Shown here: positions 56,469 through 64,000 of the stretch, one piece after another
Numbering within the stretch: position 1 is the first letter of the stretch
Layout of the letters: each line of letters opens with the position of its first letter
Origin: Pollutibacter soli
GTDB lineage: Bacteria > Bacteroidota > Bacteroidia > Chitinophagales > Chitinophagaceae
Direction: 5' to 3'
Assembly (NCBI GenBank): GCA_029269725.1
Contig: JARJHS010000006.1
Location: 248,001-312,000 of the forward strand
DNA: 64,000 nt
The notes under the pieces: model-generated
What the model was told of the DNA's origin: nothing
What the model saw: the letters and a program-made list of their open reading frames with translations, nothing else
The model's database searches: none
Program-made: the position numbers and the translations under genes

Positions 56469-57041
56469 ATGTCTGAAAAATTCAAAAACAGGTTCCGTAA
56501 TGAATCTGCCCGTATGCCCAATTGGAATTATAATGATGGTTTATATTTTGTCACCATAAATACAAAAGACCGGCTGCCTTATTTTGGTAAGGTCACCGAT
56601 GGTGAAGTACTACTATCTGAAATCGGGAAGATTGTCGAATTGGAATGGTTGAAAACGCCGTCCATCAGACCAGATATGAATATAGTTCTGGATGAATTTG
56701 TGGTGATGCCCGATCATTTTCATGGGATTATCGGGTTTAATAATTTCAATCGTTGTTTCAACCATAGGGACGCGATGCGTATCCATCGTAGGGACGCGAT
56801 GTGTATTGATCGTAGGGACGCCATGCATGGCGTCCCTACGATCAATACAAACAAATTCGGTCCGCAGTCTAAAAACCTCGCATCTATCATCCGCGGATTT
56901 AAATCGTCTGTTACCACAGCAGCACGTAAACTGGGAATACCTTTTAACTGGCAACCTCGATTTCACGAACATGCAATTCGTAATGAAATGGAATTGAAAC
57001 GAATTGCGCAGTATATCAGGGATAATCCGGCGAATGGTTGA
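56469..57041 (+). CDS. REP-associated tyrosine transposase (RAYT), intact copy
   Basis: 190 residues. YNDGLYFVTINTKDRLPYFG is the family N-terminus, MPDHFHGIIGF the HUH motif (His 83 and 85), and IAQYIRDNPANG carries the predicted nucleophile Tyr 182. RAYTs are single-copy relatives of IS200/IS605 TnpA that process palindromic REP sequences. A run RDAMRIHRRDAMCIDRRDAM (residues of about 99-118) is encoded by two 24-bp half-site units and a palindrome of the GTAGGGACGC family, inserted in frame between the HUH motif and GFKSSVTTAARK. Because relatives accept variable-length loops here, the enzyme may still be active. Two decayed copies lie at 49174 and 52892. Confidence 0.92.
   Translation: MSEKFKNRFRNESARMPNWNYNDGLYFVTINTKDRLPYFGKVTDGEVLLSEIGKIVELEWLKTPSIRPDMNIVLDEFVVMPDHFHGIIGFNNFNRCFNHRDAMRIHRRDAMCIDRRDAMHGVPTINTNKFGPQSKNLASIIRGFKSSVTTAARKLGIPFNWQPRFHEHAIRNEMELKRIAQYIRDNPANG
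56761..56849. repeat. In-frame repeat insert in RAYT: two half-sites and a 48-bp palindrome
   Basis: Half-sites CATAGGGACGCGATG (56763) and CATCGTAGGGACGCGATG (56784) precede a perfect palindrome at 56802-56849 opening TGTATTGATCGTAGGGACGC. All three are on the same strand with 21-24 bp spacing, so they add 7 or 8 codons each and do not shift the frame. Pseudogene 1 has one unit fewer. Confidence 0.9.
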
Positions 57042-57418: not shown

Positions 57419-58657
57419 ATGAAAGAACTCAGATACCTGTTTTTGATCATCCTCAGTTTCAGTTCCATATTTTCTGCAACCGCCCAGGCAGACAGGTTCG
57501 CTTATGCAGTTACTGATTCAAAGCAGGATGGTATGAATTGGATTGTACTGAGAAAAATAAATATCCGAACCGGAGAATTCAGCCAGGTTCTTTTAGACGG
57601 TATCAAAAAGGACATGACTTTGTACGATGCTGAAAACAAGCAGAGGAAAATAATGGAGATCCGGGATACCAACCAGATGTACCAGCCGCAGCTGGCATTT
57701 GCTTCAGGTGTGGCGGCGCTTGCGTACGACAGAAAAAACAATCGCGTTTTTTACATTCCGCAATACGTTGATCAGCTCCGTTATATTGACCTCAGTTCCA
57801 TGAAAGTGTATTGTGTTCATGGCAAAGGTTTTTATGCAGCAGCCGGATCAAAAATGGAACCCATGAGTACTTTGCCCAGGCTCGTGATTGCTGGAGATGG
57901 ATATGGATACAGCATTTCAAATGATGGTAATCACCTGTTCAGATTTTCTACTGATGGTACACCGAAAGTAGAAGACCTGGGTTCATTAATCGACGCTAAA
58001 GGAAATAATGAAAACACGATTCACAATGCCTGTGGTACAGGTGGTGGTGATATGATTGCTGATGATGACGGTAACCTATACCTGATTACAGCGCAGAACC
58101 AGGTGTACAAAACAAAAATCTCCACCCTGGAGACCAGCTACCTCGGAAAAATTTCCGGTCTGCCGGAAAAGTTTAATACCAATGGTGCTGCAGTAGATGA
58201 TGAAGGAAGAATCCTTGTCAGCAGTTCTACCTACAATGATGCCTGGTTTAAAATTGATCCGTCAGAATGGAAAGCATATGAATTCAAACCGAAGACGGGC
58301 CTGTACAGAAGTTCTGACCTGGCGAACAGCAATTTATTGGTAACATCGAGAACAGCAAAGAATAACCCCTTTTTCGCAGGCAATAACGGATTTATAAAAT
58401 TATATCCCAACCCTGCTGAGAAAAACGTATTCATGGTTCGACTCACCAATATCGAGCCGGGTGATTATTCTTTAAAAATGACAGACATTTCAGGCCGCAC
58501 TATCCTGGAGAAAAAAATCGCTGTGAAAACGACTACACATACTGAAACAGTATTTTTTCCTCCCAAAACTTCAGTAGGTCTTTACCTCGTAAGAATCGGC
58601 AACAGAAAAAACAGCCAGGTGTTTAGTGAGAAGGTAATGTTGAATAGGGTTGAATAG
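57419..58657 (+). CDS. T9SS-sorted secreted protein (beta-propeller-like)
   Basis: 412 residues from the ATG at 57419, giving a signal peptide (YLFLIILSFSSIFSATAQA). Residues of about 25-325 have propeller-like repeats (VAALAYDRKNNRVFYIPQYV, YGYSISNDGNHLFRFSTDGT, MIADDDGNLYLITAQNQVYK, GAAVDDEGRILVSSSTYNDA). The last 80 residues are a type A T9SS sorting domain: IKLYPNPAEKNVFMVRL, YSLKMTDISGRTILEKKI, VGLYLVRIGN. It should be exported through the type IX system and cleaved at the outer membrane. The cargo function is unknown. Confidence 0.88.
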   Translation: MKELRYLFLIILSFSSIFSATAQADRFAYAVTDSKQDGMNWIVLRKINIRTGEFSQVLLDGIKKDMTLYDAENKQRKIMEIRDTNQMYQPQLAFASGVAALAYDRKNNRVFYIPQYVDQLRYIDLSSMKVYCVHGKGFYAAAGSKMEPMSTLPRLVIAGDGYGYSISNDGNHLFRFSTDGTPKVEDLGSLIDAKGNNENTIHNACGTGGGDMIADDDGNLYLITAQNQVYKTKISTLETSYLGKISGLPEKFNTNGAAVDDEGRILVSSSTYNDAWFKIDPSEWKAYEFKPKTGLYRSSDLANSNLLVTSRTAKNNPFFAGNNGFIKLYPNPAEKNVFMVRLTNIEPGDYSLKMTDISGRTILEKKIAVKTTTHTETVFFPPKTSVGLYLVRIGNRKNSQVFSEKVMLNRVE

Positions 58658-58849
58658 CAAGAACAGAAGAGAAGGAGAAAGTGAGTATGGTTAAAGAAGG
58701 ACTAGAGACGGCTGTTTATAACCAGCAAGAGCAATGTTTTAAAACCCTATTGGGATGCAAGTATTTCCTCTGTGAAATGTTGAGCAATCAGAACTTATTG
58801 CAAACTTTTCAAGTCTGAGGTAGTTTTGCAGACATAATGCCTGCCAACA

Positions 58850-59167
58850 TAAAAACGTCAAGGTGGGAAAGGCCAGCGCTCTTTTTTCCTCATGAGCAGA
58901 TGCTGCTGATAGGTTTAATCACAGCTTTGAGGACCTTGTTATCCATCGCAAGTTCCGCATACACCTGCTTCAGTTTTGCAATTCTCCTCTTCAAGACACT
59001 TTAGTTAGTTTAAATCCTAGCTTCCCTTACTACTATACTTCTTATGCCAGTTGTAAAAAGTTTACTTGTTTATCCCAAGCTCGCGACAAATCTGCAGCAC
59101 TTTTGCCCGCTTCGTATTCCCTTATTGCATTGATAATCTGAGTCTCGCAAAATCTTGATTTCTTCAT
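58850..59167 (-). pseudogene. IS3-family transposase OrfA remnant
   Basis: The minus strand from ATG at 59167 reads MKKSRFCETQIINAIREYEA, then AADLCRELGINK, stop, TFYNWHKKYSSKGS, stop, LKCLEEEN; after a frame change it continues RIAKLKQVYAELAMDNKVLK. This is the helix-turn-helix protein of IS3-type elements (usually about 90 residues) with stops and a frameshift. OrfB is absent. A TGTCCTATTTTTAGCGG stretch near 59205 may be the old terminal repeat. The remnant lies directly upstream of the potassium-channel operon, marking a past insertion at the boundary. Confidence 0.85.
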
Positions 59168-59500
59168 ATTTGACAGTTTAATTTAGAAAAGTTTAGTTTA
59201 AAAACTGTCCTATTTTTAGCGGAGGCTACATATTAAGTTGCGAGTAAAAACTCCGAAAAAAACTAGTTCATTTTATTTGTAGGAATCTAGGTAGATGAAC
59301 GCAATTTAGCCTAATTACTAACGTTTAAAATCTTTAAATGCAGATGGATAACGTACTAGATTGAAAATTAATCTTTTACCCAATAATTTCGTGGACTCTA
59401 ATTAAATTTATATTGAAAGGAGATTGAATAAATCGAGCTTTTTTTAAGGTTTTTTCTCGAGAACTAATCTAGTAAACTATTAAAATTATTAGCCTCTCCC
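59168..59500. other. AT-rich leader of the channel/TerB/ATPase operon
   Basis: About 330 bp, more AT-rich than the window's core genes, with no gene and no TAnnTTTG box found. A possible stem, TCGAGC with T/A runs and CTCGAGAA, lies at about 59432-59463. The promoter of the operon should be here. Confidence 0.3.
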
Positions 59501-60169
59501 ATGGATCAAACAAAGACGGAAAAGCTTACGTTCTTGAATCTGATTATAATAATTCTGTCGATATATGTTCTTGTTGCTCTTATGCTCGACACATTTATTA
59601 AATTACCTTCAGAAGTTTCCCGTATCCTTTATATCACTGACAACCTAATTTGTTTTGTTTTTCTATTTGATTTCGCAGTACGCTTTCGAAAGGCACAAAA
59701 CAAGCTGGCTTTTTTAAAATGGGGATGGATAGACCTTGTCTCTAGTATTCCTTCATTTGATTTTATGAGAGTTGGCCGGGCATTAAGGCTGATTCGGCTG
59801 ATTCGAATTTTGAGAGCTTTTCGGTCAACTAAACATCTTGTACAATATATTTTCAGACAAAAGTCCCGTGGAGCACTGACAGCCGCAATAACAATTGCAA
59901 TACTGATGGTAATCTTTTCATCAATAGCGATCTTGCAAGTGGAAGTTGACCCATCAAGCAATATTAAAACTGCGGAAGATGCACTGTGGTGGTCATATAC
60001 TACAATAACAACTGTGGGTTATGGCGATAAATTTCCAGTTACTACAGAAGGCAGATTAATTGCAGTGGCACTGATGACAGTAGGGGTTGGCCTTTTCGGG
60101 ACATTCACAGCTTTTTTGGCCTCCTGGTTTATTGGAGAAAATAAAACTGAAGTTGCAAATGAAAAGTAA
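59501..60169 (+). CDS. Voltage-gated-type potassium channel
   Basis: 222 residues with six membrane segments. S4 is Arg-rich (RVGRALRLIRLIRILRAFRS, about residues 88-107), as in voltage sensors, and the pore loop holds the K+ filter TVGYGD at residues 171-176 after WWSYTTITT. The final helix is followed by a short cytoplasmic tail (NKTEVANEK). It lacks a RCK/TrkA domain. The last 11 bp overlap the start of the next gene, so channel and SH3/TerB protein are coupled. Alone it would be an ordinary ion channel; in this operon it may be an effector or sensor. Confidence 0.92.
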   Translation: MDQTKTEKLTFLNLIIIILSIYVLVALMLDTFIKLPSEVSRILYITDNLICFVFLFDFAVRFRKAQNKLAFLKWGWIDLVSSIPSFDFMRVGRALRLIRLIRILRAFRSTKHLVQYIFRQKSRGALTAAITIAILMVIFSSIAILQVEVDPSSNIKTAEDALWWSYTTITTVGYGDKFPVTTEGRLIAVALMTVGVGLFGTFTAFLASWFIGENKTEVANEK

Positions 60170-62684
60170 AGCCAAAATCTTGTTTACGATTATAGTGTTA
60201 ATTCTCAGTTTTGTTGGCAAGGCACAGACAAACTACAAAGTCAATACGGATGCAAAACTCCGATCAGGCCCAGGTGCCAAATATCGTACAATCATAATCA
60301 TCAAAAATGGAGAAAATGTGCGGCATGTTGAGCAAACGAATTCAAACTGGATTAAAATTGACTATAACGGAAAAATTGGTTTTATCTCAAGCAAGCTTAT
60401 TTCAACTTTGCCAGACACAGTTTCTCTGGCTCCAAATCCTATTCCTCAAACTACATCAAAAACTAAAGAGGATCGAACGCCTTATTATATTTTAATTGTA
60501 ATTGTGGTGGTCCTTATAATATTAAGTTTGTTGAAAAAAAAAGAGCCTGCACAAGGTTCAGTTTTGAAAATCACTGCTGAGCGCAACAATAATTCTCAAT
60601 CAGAAAAAATTGAATTATTGGTAGACAAAGTCAAAAAAAATTCGAAAACAGGAGTTCAAATAAACATTGAGACTCCTTTAAAAACAAATGTTCGTGATCT
60701 TGACAAAACTGAAAACAGAAACAGCATTTTCAGAAAGTTACAACCTGGTAAAGTTCCTGAAGATATAAATACGTTAAATGCAGCGGGAACTGGAACAAAT
60801 CAACATGGAATAGATGAAGCCCTCAACGAGACAACACCTGACTATTCCAAAACGGGAGATGATAAAAACGATACTATTAAAAACATTGAAGATGAAACCA
60901 TAATTGATGTCTCAGATCAAAACTATAATCTTTCGGTATTCGATAGAGAAGCACCAGGTAATGTTAATGTGCCTCATTGGAATCATCAATACGTCTATTC
61001 AGCAAGCGAGATTAGCAACGCCACGGAAGAACAGAAACAGTTTTATAACTATTTTAAACAGCAATTCCTTAAGGGCAATTATCTTGATCTGCATGGGAAT
61101 ACCAATTATTGCTTTATTCTTTTATTTGACATGATTGATGCTTTTAAGCAACATAAAAGTCTGGCTCTTATTGAAAACCAAATAGCTGAAATCGGCCAAC
61201 ACTATCCTGTGACAAGCCGGTATGGAATTTCTGCCCTGCTAGATAAATTGGAAGCAGTTGGAGATCATTATTCTCTACAACGATTACGCTCAAGACACAA
61301 CCTTTCAATTCAAAGTTTACAACAAACGCCCAGTCCAAATTATAGCTTTGATCCAGATTGTTTGCGTCTTGGTGCCAAGTTTCAATCGAGTCTTTCATTA
61401 ACGGCAAATGAAGTTGAGATTTTAAATTCATTCTGGAGTCCTACTAATAACTTTTTTTCAATTGATCACTGTGGAAACACCGTAGTGAAACTGTTTGTCG
61501 CAGTCATAAGACTTCTGGATGAAAAGTTGAAAAAGGCACAAAGCAGTCTACAAACTGAAATAACAACAGTGGTTGACATTGCATTAAGGAAGCATTTTCA
61601 TTATAATCCAAATAGCTATAACTACACGAGCAGCATTAACTATGTTAAGGCTGAAATCTATTCAAACGCCCTTAAGCTTTGTGAAAATGTTGTCCGGGAA
61701 CGATATGGCCATAAACGAAAACTGAATACAGATACCTTTATAACAACTCCTGAAGCCAAGGAGGAACTTGATTCTCGGGTCTTTCAGAAAGTAAATACTG
61801 CATTGATTGAACTAATTGAAACTATTGAGGAACCAGACGAAGTAACAGAATTAGAGCTGAACGCTCAAAACACTGGAAGGTGGAAACCTAAGTTTGAAGA
61901 ATTATGTGAAAAATTTAGTGGGAAGTCAAAAGAATTTACGGCCTTGGTTTTATCACTTGGCAGTCAGAACAGTCGGAATCCAGCCATTGAAAATCTGTTT
62001 TTTGAAGCTTCGAAGTTTCTTGCCAAAATTGATAAAGAAAGTTCTTTGCTAATGTTCATTCACTATATCCATCATGATCTGAACTCCTCGAATTTTGACA
62101 ACAGGAAACTTACAAAAACAGTCCAAAAAAGTCTTTTTTCCAACAATGAACAGCTCCGCAGTTTTGAAAAATTGCTGTCTGATCTAATTAATGACAGGAA
62201 TCTCCAGGCTGCGCTCGAAGCTGTACCGACTATTTATGAGAATAAGAGGAAAAAAATTCAGCTAAATTCTGAGCATATTAGGGAAGTGCGGGAATTGCAT
62301 TCAGATACTGTTGAACTTTTAAATGAGTATTTGAAAGATGAGTACGAAGATGAAAGCACGACTATCAAAACCGAGCAAATAAGCAACAACGAAATTAAGA
62401 TCGACATTTTACCGAAAAACGCAACAGCTCATTCTTCCGTATTTTTAGCTGATCTTAGGTTTTCCGAAGTGCAAATTGAACTTTTGTTGATATTTTCAAA
62501 AAACAATTTTTCAATTTTTCAATCAGATGTCGAAGCATTTGCAAAATCCAAGTCAGTGTTCAAAAATCACCTAATTGAGGGCATTAACGAAATTTGTTAT
62601 GAATGTCTGGATGATATATTAATCGAAGAAGTAGAAGAGTCAGTTTCAATTAATCCTGAATATTATAAAAGACTTCTAAAATAA
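60159..62684 (+). CDS. Membrane protein with SH3 domain and TerB-N/TerB-C-like regions
   Basis: 841 residues from the ATG at 60159. A signal-like segment (KILFTIIVLILSFVGKAQ) is followed by a bacterial SH3 domain at about 25-80 (AKLRSGPGAKYRTIIIIKNG, NWIKIDYNGKIGFISSKLI), a linker and one membrane helix at about 109-125 (YILIVIVVVLIILSLLKKK). By charge, SH3 is outside and the rest cytoplasmic. After a low-complexity linker, FYNYFKQQFLKGNYLDLHGN, then FILLFDMIDAF and HYPVTSRYG resemble TerB-N; the end (SEVQIELLLIFSKNNFSIFQ, then INEICYECLDDILIEEVEES) resembles TerB-C. These domains occur together in tellurite-type stress and predicted DNA-processing systems, usually with an ATPase and helicase. 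Coupled to both neighbours. Confidence 0.82.
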   Translation: MKSKAKILFTIIVLILSFVGKAQTNYKVNTDAKLRSGPGAKYRTIIIIKNGENVRHVEQTNSNWIKIDYNGKIGFISSKLISTLPDTVSLAPNPIPQTTSKTKEDRTPYYILIVIVVVLIILSLLKKKEPAQGSVLKITAERNNNSQSEKIELLVDKVKKNSKTGVQINIETPLKTNVRDLDKTENRNSIFRKLQPGKVPEDINTLNAAGTGTNQHGIDEALNETTPDYSKTGDDKNDTIKNIEDETIIDVSDQNYNLSVFDREAPGNVNVPHWNHQYVYSASEISNATEEQKQFYNYFKQQFLKGNYLDLHGNTNYCFILLFDMIDAFKQHKSLALIENQIAEIGQHYPVTSRYGISALLDKLEAVGDHYSLQRLRSRHNLSIQSLQQTPSPNYSFDPDCLRLGAKFQSSLSLTANEVEILNSFWSPTNNFFSIDHCGNTVVKLFVAVIRLLDEKLKKAQSSLQTEITTVVDIALRKHFHYNPNSYNYTSSINYVKAEIYSNALKLCENVVRERYGHKRKLNTDTFITTPEAKEELDSRVFQKVNTALIELIETIEEPDEVTELELNAQNTGRWKPKFEELCEKFSGKSKEFTALVLSLGSQNSRNPAIENLFFEASKFLAKIDKESSLLMFIHYIHHDLNSSNFDNRKLTKTVQKSLFSNNEQLRSFEKLLSDLINDRNLQAALEAVPTIYENKRKKIQLNSEHIREVRELHSDTVELLNEYLKDEYEDESTTIKTEQISNNEIKIDILPKNATAHSSVFLADLRFSEVQIELLLIFSKNNFSIFQSDVEAFAKSKSVFKNHLIEGINEICYECLDDILIEEVEESVSINPEYYKRLLK

Positions 62685-63997
62685 TGATAGACAATATTAA
62701 ACCTAAAGAAGCAACATCAATAATTAACTCTCTGGTCGGAGGAGTTGTGCCTAAAATTGGGGTCCAGCATATTACCGTGGGTAGATCAGAGGAGATTGAA
62801 GCTTTCGTGAAGGCCTTGGACGATGTAAAGAATGGGCATAGTATGGTTAAATTCTGGATAGGTGATTTTGGGTTTGGAAAATCATTTATGCTTCATTTGT
62901 TAAATACAGTTGCATTAAAGCAGAAGTTTGTTGTAGCGAATGCAGATTTCACTCCGGACAACAGGTTGTATTCAAACGATGGAAGGGCTGTTTTGCTCTA
63001 TTCGGCAATAGTTGATAATATTTCGATACAAACAAAGCCAGAAGGAGGCGCCTTACCGACCTTATTAGAAAAATGGATTGAACAGGTAATAACTAAAACG
63101 GCCGCTGAAAATCAAATTACGATTACGGAAATCAGGAATGAGAAGTATTTAAACCTGATCCAGTCCGAACTCATGAAAACCATAAACGAATTAACGGATG
63201 TTGGAGGTTTTGACTTTGGATTGGTATTAGTTAGATACTATGAAGGGTTTATAACTGACAATGCGGATTTATGTCGTAATGCATTAAAATGGTTGAAAGG
63301 CGAGTATAGAACTAAAACTGAAGCTAAGCAAGATTTGGGGGTAAGAGAAATAATCAATGATTTGAATTATTATGACATGCTTAAAAACTTCTGCAAGTTG
63401 TTTGTTAGTTTAGGCTACAGCGGATTTCTGATTAACCTGGATGAGGCAATTAATTTGTATAAAATTTCGACATCAGTAATGAGAGAAAAGAATTATGAAA
63501 AGATTCTCTCTATATATAACGACTGTTTCCAGGGAAAGATTACCCATCTAATGATCAATTTCGCTGGTACAAAGGAATTTCTTGAAAATGAACGTAGGGG
63601 ACTTTTTAGCTATAACGCATTAAAAACAAGACTCGAGTCAAATAAGTTTGAAACATCAGAAATTCGTGACTTTGCACAGCCAGTGATTCGACTAATGCCA
63701 CTTGACCATAATGAAATATTTGTACTTCTTAATAAGTTAAAAGCAATATTTGATTTCAATTATAAAACGAAAATCGATGTTTCGGACGAGGATATCCATC
63801 AATTCATGGAAGAAATCTTTAATAAACCTGGTGCAGCCGAATTTTTGACACCCAGAGAGGTAATCAGAGATTTCCTTAATATCCTGAATATTCTGCGTCA
63901 GAATCCCGATGTGGATAAGCGCAAGCTTTTTGGTGATCTTGAAATCTCTGATGAAAGACCGAAGGAAGGAAAACTGGATGAAATCGAAGAGATATAA
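62684..63997 (+). CDS. BrxD/DUF2791-like P-loop ATPase
   Basis: 437 residues, starting at ATG overlapping the previous stop (TAATG). HITVGRSEEIEAFVKALDDV is the family's GR-E segment, GDFGFGKS (about 60-67) Walker A, GFLINLDEAINLY (about 247-259) Walker B with Asp-Glu, and HLMINFAGTKEF and YNALKTRLESNKFE likely sensor regions. LTPREVIRDFLNILNILRQN closes the ATPase fold. The length and pattern match the BREX-linked BrxD/DUF2791 P-loop family. In such loci a helicase usually follows. Its stop overlaps an ATG at 63997, so the operon goes on beyond the window. Cytoplasmic. Confidence 0.87.
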   Translation: MIDNIKPKEATSIINSLVGGVVPKIGVQHITVGRSEEIEAFVKALDDVKNGHSMVKFWIGDFGFGKSFMLHLLNTVALKQKFVVANADFTPDNRLYSNDGRAVLLYSAIVDNISIQTKPEGGALPTLLEKWIEQVITKTAAENQITITEIRNEKYLNLIQSELMKTINELTDVGGFDFGLVLVRYYEGFITDNADLCRNALKWLKGEYRTKTEAKQDLGVREIINDLNYYDMLKNFCKLFVSLGYSGFLINLDEAINLYKISTSVMREKNYEKILSIYNDCFQGKITHLMINFAGTKEFLENERRGLFSYNALKTRLESNKFETSEIRDFAQPVIRLMPLDHNEIFVLLNKLKAIFDFNYKTKIDVSDEDIHQFMEEIFNKPGAAEFLTPREVIRDFLNILNILRQNPDVDKRKLFGDLEISDERPKEGKLDEIEEI

Positions 63998-64000
63998 TGG
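63997..64000 (+). CDS. Start codon of the next gene in the operon (rest outside the window)
   Basis: The ATPase gene ends TAATGG, so an ATG begins on the last base of the stop codon, exactly as at the previous junction (62684). Only the start codon and one base are visible. By family context the gene could encode a helicase; that is inference only. Confidence 0.5.

Follow-up and report, generated by a model that had tools for sequence, protein, structure and literature searches.

We found a predicted K+ channel gene overlapping the start of a Shango anti-phage locus at the right-hand end of the window (the whole 64,000-nucleotide stretch of Pollutibacter soli DNA that was analyzed). Judged by PADLOC, which names SngA, SngB, and SngC, the locus is a Shango system with these three genes in order, and together with the channel gene they look like a cassette that travels as one unit. 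The membrane segment that SngA so often carries may be the most general new point. The main features are as follows.

58893-59182, - strand: degraded, OrfA-like remnant of an IS3-type transposase, to the left of the cassette (stop-to-stop reading by eye)
59501-60169, + strand: K+ channel gene, gene 1 of the cassette, 222 aa, voltage-gated-like (Pfam, PDB match, homologue in genome G400)
59768-59824, + strand: Arg-rich S4 voltage-sensor-like segment of the channel (translation inspected by eye)
60011-60028, + strand: TVGYGD K+ selectivity filter of the channel (sequence; aligns to the KcsA-type filter)
60159-62684, + strand: sngA, 841 aa (PADLOC SngA, Pfam SH3_3 and TerB_C, AlphaFold2 model)
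60252-60404, + strand: SH3_3 domain, SngA residues 32-82, extracytoplasmic by prediction
60477-60533, + strand: SngA transmembrane (TM) helix, residues 107-125, with lysines next to it (hydropathy; AlphaFold2 helix 107-124)
62217-62675, + strand: TerB_C domain, SngA residues 687-839 (Pfam, about 4.2e-21 to 4.5e-21)
62684-63997, + strand: sngB, 437 aa, BrxC/BrxD-like P-loop ATPase (PADLOC SngB, Pfam BrxC_BrxD)
62861-62884, + strand: Walker A motif GDFGFGKS, SngB residues 60-67 (sequence)
63997-64000, + strand: start of sngC, which encodes a 710-aa helicase and ends outside the window, at what would be position 66129 (L001:7997-10129)

The four consecutive starts with overlaps of 11, 1, and 1 bp described in the initial annotation were confirmed, all on the + strand: the sngA ATG at 60159 gives the 11-bp overlap with the channel gene, base 62684 is common to the SngA stop and the SngB start, and base 63997 to the SngB stop and the SngC start. 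SngB and SngC matched the PADLOC models almost end to end, and SngA did so from model position 95 on (SngA: 2.3e-36, positions 95-524 of 528; SngB: 1e-164 vs. 9e-44 for BrxD; SngC: 3.2e-213). The P-loop ATPase recognized earlier from GDFGFGKS and LDEA, both present in SngB, was borne out by a Pfam match to BrxC_BrxD (1.3e-143), and the helicase expected to be linked to the locus appeared when the contig was extended rightward past the window and annotated: SngC, which matches Pfam DEAD and Helicase_C, follows SngB. A membrane protein joined to a putatively DNA-acting ATPase was thus a fair description. However, the statement that no described system has this exact combination did not hold, as a TerB protein, an ATPase, and a DEAD/DEAH helicase together are Shango (PMC10250203). 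According to the available portion of that paper (Johnson et al.), a three-gene operon of a TerB-like protein, an ATPase, and a DEAD/DEAH helicase protects Pseudomonas aeruginosa, and the discovery of Shango in E. coli is cited; the system has been described for E. coli and for strain PA14 of P. aeruginosa. According to excerpts of other sources, SngC groups with BrxHI, DruE, and DpdJ in a helicase phylogeny, in what may be a clade of its own (PMC12278908), and a 2026 review files Shango under 'Unknown' mechanism, next to systems some of which have been explained since (PMC12926258); the portions of the literature available to us gave no mechanism for Shango.

BREX was considered for the same genes, since SngB is a relative of BrxD and SngC of BrxHI. 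SngB nevertheless scored far better as SngB than as BrxD, and SngC scored best as SngC, with BrxH second. In addition, BREX components were absent from the matches listed for nine other downstream genes (~12 kb) and from the Pfam matches of the three upstream genes. With SngB and SngC scoring best as Shango and no BREX core genes among the matches listed nearby, membership in BREX was rejected.

The present Shango sits in a defense island. Downstream of sngC lie a MazG-like gene, an SLFN-type helicase, CBASS genes (SMODS cyclase, HORMA, TRIP13, and SAVED-peptidase), and a pair of HTH and M78 metallopeptidase genes, the latter matching CapP (9.2e-38). We take the CBASS to be 'type III', judging from HORMA and TRIP13. 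Together with the PADLOC assignments, the CBASS genes support the earlier reading of the region as a phage-defense module, and this copy of Shango would presumably be active against phage. The transposase remnant on the left, seen in translations of the gap at 58657-59501, is presumably of the IS3 family.

The product of gene 1 is counted as a voltage-gated-like K+ channel because of its Pfam matches (Ion_trans, 1.4e-22; Ion_trans_2, 6.5e-16), its K+ filter, and its S4 arginines; conduction and gating are predicted. Inspection of the translation and the Ion_trans match agreed with the channel with TVGYGD and an Arg-rich S4 proposed initially. The nearest solved chains in a search of the PDB were those of KcsA (2.4e-20), and we take the remaining entries in that match list to be KvAP.

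Pfam, hydropathy, and the AlphaFold2 model divide SngA into a signal-like helix, an SH3b domain (SH3_3, 7.9e-9), a TM helix, a disordered linker, and a helical TerB-type core. The SH3b domain is similar to those found in endolysins, LytB, and NlpC-type enzymes and perhaps binds peptidoglycan, and the predicted topology would place it in the periplasm and the core in the cytoplasm. The initial annotation had put SH3 outside and TerB-N/TerB-C-like regions inside; SH3_3 and TerB_C were recovered by Pfam, whereas TerB_N was not. This lack is not special to the window, as Pfam with a cut-off of E 0.001 found TerB_N in none of the 55 SngAs that make up alignment A1 (54 of the 80 loci described below and the window), nor did Pfam find a TerB domain in the window SngA or these 55. 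By contrast, four plasmid SngAs (without that of Hymenobacter) had TerB_N in all four cases and TerB above the cut-off in three. Since A1 aligned with these four TerB_N-bearing sequences in hhalign (probability 89.6, E 1.9e-6, 501 columns), a diverged TerB_N in SngA is possible. A fold search with the SngA core gave no match above the noise range.

We then compared SngA N-termini across 81 rows (80 loci plus the window), which comprised 35 without a TM segment, 31 with one TM, 8 with SH3 plus TM, 5 with two TMs, and 2 unclassified; an N-terminal membrane segment was therefore called in 44 of the 79 classified rows, window included. These calls come from a hydropathy threshold of 1.7 (1.6 for the plasmid SngAs) rather than a trained predictor, with borderline anchors, such as that of L025, scored 'cyt'. 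Pfam detected TerB_C in all 55 SngAs of A1, SH3_3 in 8, and TM2 in 2. Among hand-picked plasmid SngAs of two other phyla, 3 of 4 had a TM start (Pseudoalteromonas, Sulfitobacter, and Cetobacterium), and none was called in the plasmid SngAs of Moraxella or Hymenobacter. In further loci, the gene preceding sngB had an early TM in 15 of 17 cases (20 minus the repeats L193 and L196 and minus L195, in which no SngA was called); this gene was taken as SngA by its position rather than by profile, and some of the starts may be too early. Membrane anchoring of SngA thus looks widespread in these sequences; the portions of the Shango literature available to us made no mention of it.

Another companion was a BRCT-family protein of ~300 aa, encoded directly upstream of sngA in 21 of the 80 loci, with Pfam BRCT confirmed in the three members tested. 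A similarity search with this family matched 25 of the 80 loci, the four others being L059, L101/L102 (downstream), and L047; the last was exonuclease-like by eye and probably shares only the common BRCT part. Shango appears to combine an invariant ATPase-helicase core with parts for anchoring or sensing that vary.

The channel does not belong to Shango in general. Scanning genome contigs for SngB relatives gave 152, and among the best 80 of these 152 the channel was upstream of sngA in none of the 77 assessable loci, those that show DNA ahead of an intact sngA. Three loci were left out of this count, namely L059 and L099, whose SngA is cut by a contig end, and L024, which has a contig break at the junction and was handled apart; L053 and L091 were counted despite short upstream DNA (351 and 757 nt before sngA). 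Neither a similarity search nor the filter motif revealed a channel in 20 further, mostly more distant, Shango loci (0/20), including two repeats (L193 and L196, equal to L046 and L079). Because of these absences, Shango in general does not need the channel. Across 395 sampled genomes of the phylum, SngB was present in 20 (E 1e-80) and a channel relative in 16 (E 1e-25), and both occurred together only in the window's own genome. As about 0.8 shared genomes were expected, co-occurrence does not exceed chance.

Conversely, one other genome among 41 of the genus, G400, encodes a channel 86% identical to that of the window, along with the nearest SngA (63%) and the nearest SngB (89%). We took G400 and the genome of locus L024 (a MAG, Chitinophagales bacterium bin_80) as one assembly because their contig numbers and coordinates are identical. 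In G400, the contig with the channel breaks off 9 nt past an ATG that is placed like the window's sngA start and overlaps the channel, and the contig with Shango picks up near SngA residue 19. These two ends lie on either side of one channel/sngA junction, with roughly 45-50 nt missing between them. From these two contig ends, left unjoined, we infer that channel and sngABC are linked in the second species. The assembly is fragmented (87% complete, 810 contigs) and has 4% contamination, and therefore misbinning is possible.

Homology between G400 and the window was confined to 59517-60152, 60222-60419, and 60978-66114, that is, to the inside of the four genes, and no flank homology was found in 6.4 kb upstream or 1.3 kb downstream; within the 6.4-kb upstream flank, a single stretch of 172 bp matched a different contig of the window's genome. 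Rough NG86 estimates, which are near saturation, gave dS values of 1.32, 1.27, 1.47, and 1.19 and dN/dS values of 0.061, 0.193, 0.038, and 0.109 for channel, SngA, SngB, and SngC, respectively. The channel is therefore under purifying selection and appears to be kept functional. With recA as a single-gene yardstick of vertical descent, dS was 2.73, which, together with the lower GC content of the cassette (36.4% vs. 42.4% for the window), points to transfer. In the SngB tree, the window and L024 were sisters (SH-aLRT 99). The four genes are co-inherited in two species, with the linkage in the second read from the contig ends, and this recurrence makes the unit more than chance. Because the dS values are even (1.2-1.5), the channel dN/dS is 0.06, and the compared flanks are unrelated, the channel and sngABC look like a travelling four-gene cassette, probably mobile, whose members move together. 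The absence of the channel from nearly all relatives of the locus counts, in breadth, against the four-part system suggested initially; but purifying selection has preserved the channel in a second species, where the flanking DNA is unrelated, and a lineage-restricted four-gene channel-Shango variant looks real.

As for function, we tentatively favor, at somewhat below an even chance, a Shango variant that is tethered to the membrane and acts at phage entry, the channel being a module specific to this lineage. Both the SngA tether and the channel coupling are proposed by analogy with Zorya and Kiwa/SNIPE. SngA would sit in the inner membrane, with its SH3b in the periplasm, perhaps bound to peptidoglycan, followed by a single TM helix, a cytoplasmic linker that is long and flexible, and the helical TerB-type core; this core would hold the SngB ATPase and the SngC helicase at the membrane, beneath the wall, such that DNA entering through an envelope lesion would be met by them at the entry point. 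The K+ channel would be the membrane partner, with its voltage sensor or K+ flux helping to switch SngA on, and the trigger would be envelope disturbance during phage entry. In other words, the channel may contact SngA and serve as a sensor with it, voltage or K+ may be the trigger, and DNA may be the target. A broader version, in which Shango generally docks at the membrane and is here coupled to a voltage-gated K+ channel, with a shift in potential or K+ on phage DNA entry directly triggering the DNA-acting ATPase-helicase as an electrically gated immunity, seems rather unlikely.

Alternatively, the channel may be the effector: Shango activation would open it, K+ would be lost, the potential would change, and the cell would stop or die before phage release, as in abortive infection. 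Membrane-permeabilizing effectors occur in other defense systems, and a strongly constrained channel with an intact K+ filter as the first gene of a tightly coupled defense operon would suit such a role, but a K+-selective channel tends to hold the potential near K+ equilibrium rather than collapse it. Moreover, core Shango comes with an ATPase and a helicase of its own, and the three-gene system already protects (PMC10250203). The Zorya work, in the portion available, saw no depolarization, which cautions against assuming an ion-flux effector (PMC11890865), and we regard the effector role as possible but doubtful.

The locus may instead be an ordinary three-gene Shango with a hitch-hiking channel, captured beside sngA in one lineage and sharing the transcript only. 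Lineage restriction (0/77 and 0/20), the lack of genome-level co-occurrence with SngB, and the 22 of 22 fetched channel-relative loci without adjoining SngA or SngB, most with neighbors that are ordinary by eye, would all follow from such a capture; however, the 11-bp overlap, with a start arrangement shared by two species at a dS of about 1.3, and a channel dN/dS of 0.06 between unrelated flanks make it unlikely. Very unlikely is a protective housekeeping role, in which the channel re-polarizes the membrane after phage injection or Shango action and the host survives: a Kv-type channel opened by depolarization drives the potential back toward K+ equilibrium, and the S4 Arg pattern is present, but other Shango lineages manage without the channel.

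Returning to the membrane-tethered variant, the locus shares with described Shango the three PADLOC models in order, overlapping genes, TerB_C, a BrxC/D-like ATPase, a DEAD helicase, and a defense-island setting. This set is already known; what is unusual here is the upstream overlapping K+ channel and a SngA with a signal-like helix, SH3b, and TM (SH3_3 in 8 of 55 SngAs). As far as the available parts of the sources go, a membrane sensor with a DNA-directed effector is the working plan of Zorya, Kiwa, and SNIPE (PMC11890865, PMC12904381). Zorya would work similarly through an ion-conducting membrane protein, a peptidoglycan-binding periplasmic domain, and DNA-acting cytoplasmic effectors (PMC11890865, PMC12904381), but in the present locus a K+ channel takes the place of the MotAB-type motor, SH3b that of the Pal-like domain of ZorB, and SngB/SngC that of the Zorya effectors; the Zorya models (ZorA/ZorB) gave no PADLOC match with E up to 1 for the channel, SngA, or SngB. 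Kiwa (the membrane sensor KwaA with the DNA binder KwaB) and SNIPE resemble it in membrane-localized sensing and DNA-directed action at the entry site, whereas their proteins are others and an ATPase/helicase pair is not in their description in the available text (PMC12904381). The frequent membrane start of SngA, its varied N-termini, and optional companions (K+ channel; BRCT-family protein) lead to the hypothesis that Shango works at the membrane, at the site of DNA entry, and the channel variant would offer an electrical handle on whether it does.

Finally, the 22 fetched loci of channel relatives exclude G1123, with three stops in the match, and include L145, in which the gene call had no channel ORF. 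A DEAD-box helicase near the channel of L170 matched SngC, which we took as a general helicase match. At L140, L165, and L151, a co-directional neighbor of the channel carries an HSDR_N-type domain by Pfam. Type I restriction subunits carry such a domain N-terminally, and the link of channel relatives to these genes is no more than a lead.

Among the best 80 of 152 SngB-relative (Shango) loci, 21, most of them from Flavobacterium and Chryseobacterium, encode a protein of about 300 aa immediately 5' of sngA. Pfam matched BRCT in the three members checked, listed below by locus; this companion is possibly an optional fourth Shango gene.
L030:7146-8048, BRCT protein upstream of sngA
L055:7108-7998, BRCT protein upstream of sngA
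L093:6678-7592, BRCT protein upstream of sngA

Pfam matched TM2 in 2 of the 55 SngAs scanned, and at the Hymenobacter sp. UV11 locus (L089:7147-10007) two successive ORFs 5' of sngB each matched the SngA core, which may reflect a duplication or a split gene.
L045:4956-8051, SngA (1031 aa), Pfam TM2 domain at the N-terminal start
L039:7914-10004, SngA, start resembling that of L045 by eye

Relatives of the window's K+ channel adjoined co-directional genes with an HSDR_N domain (Pfam) in 3 of the 22 channel loci fetched; such pairs could possibly form a two-gene unit of channel and nuclease-like protein.
L140:1224-2670, channel relative and HSDR_N gene
L165:6173-7608, channel relative and HSDR_N gene
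L151:7820-9546, channel relative and HSDR_N gene

Downstream of Shango, on the contig extended to the right (L001), lie CBASS genes, presumably of type III.
L001:12642-16877 (window-frame equivalent 68642-72877), minus strand, SMODS cyclase, HORMA, TRIP13 and SAVED-peptidase effector
L001:17514-18452, strand opposite to the CBASS genes, HTH and M78 pair matching the CapH/CapP models

Immediately left of the cassette is a degraded remnant that we take to be an IS3-like transposase; frames ahead of the cassette in the second species (G400, locus L122) are likewise transposase-like. By eye, a short RDAM-type repeat accompanies the Y1_Tnp-like gene.
Window 58893-59182, degraded transposase remnant
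Window 56469-57041, gene for a Y1_Tnp-like protein (weakly matched by Pfam, under cut-off, E 0.0084)
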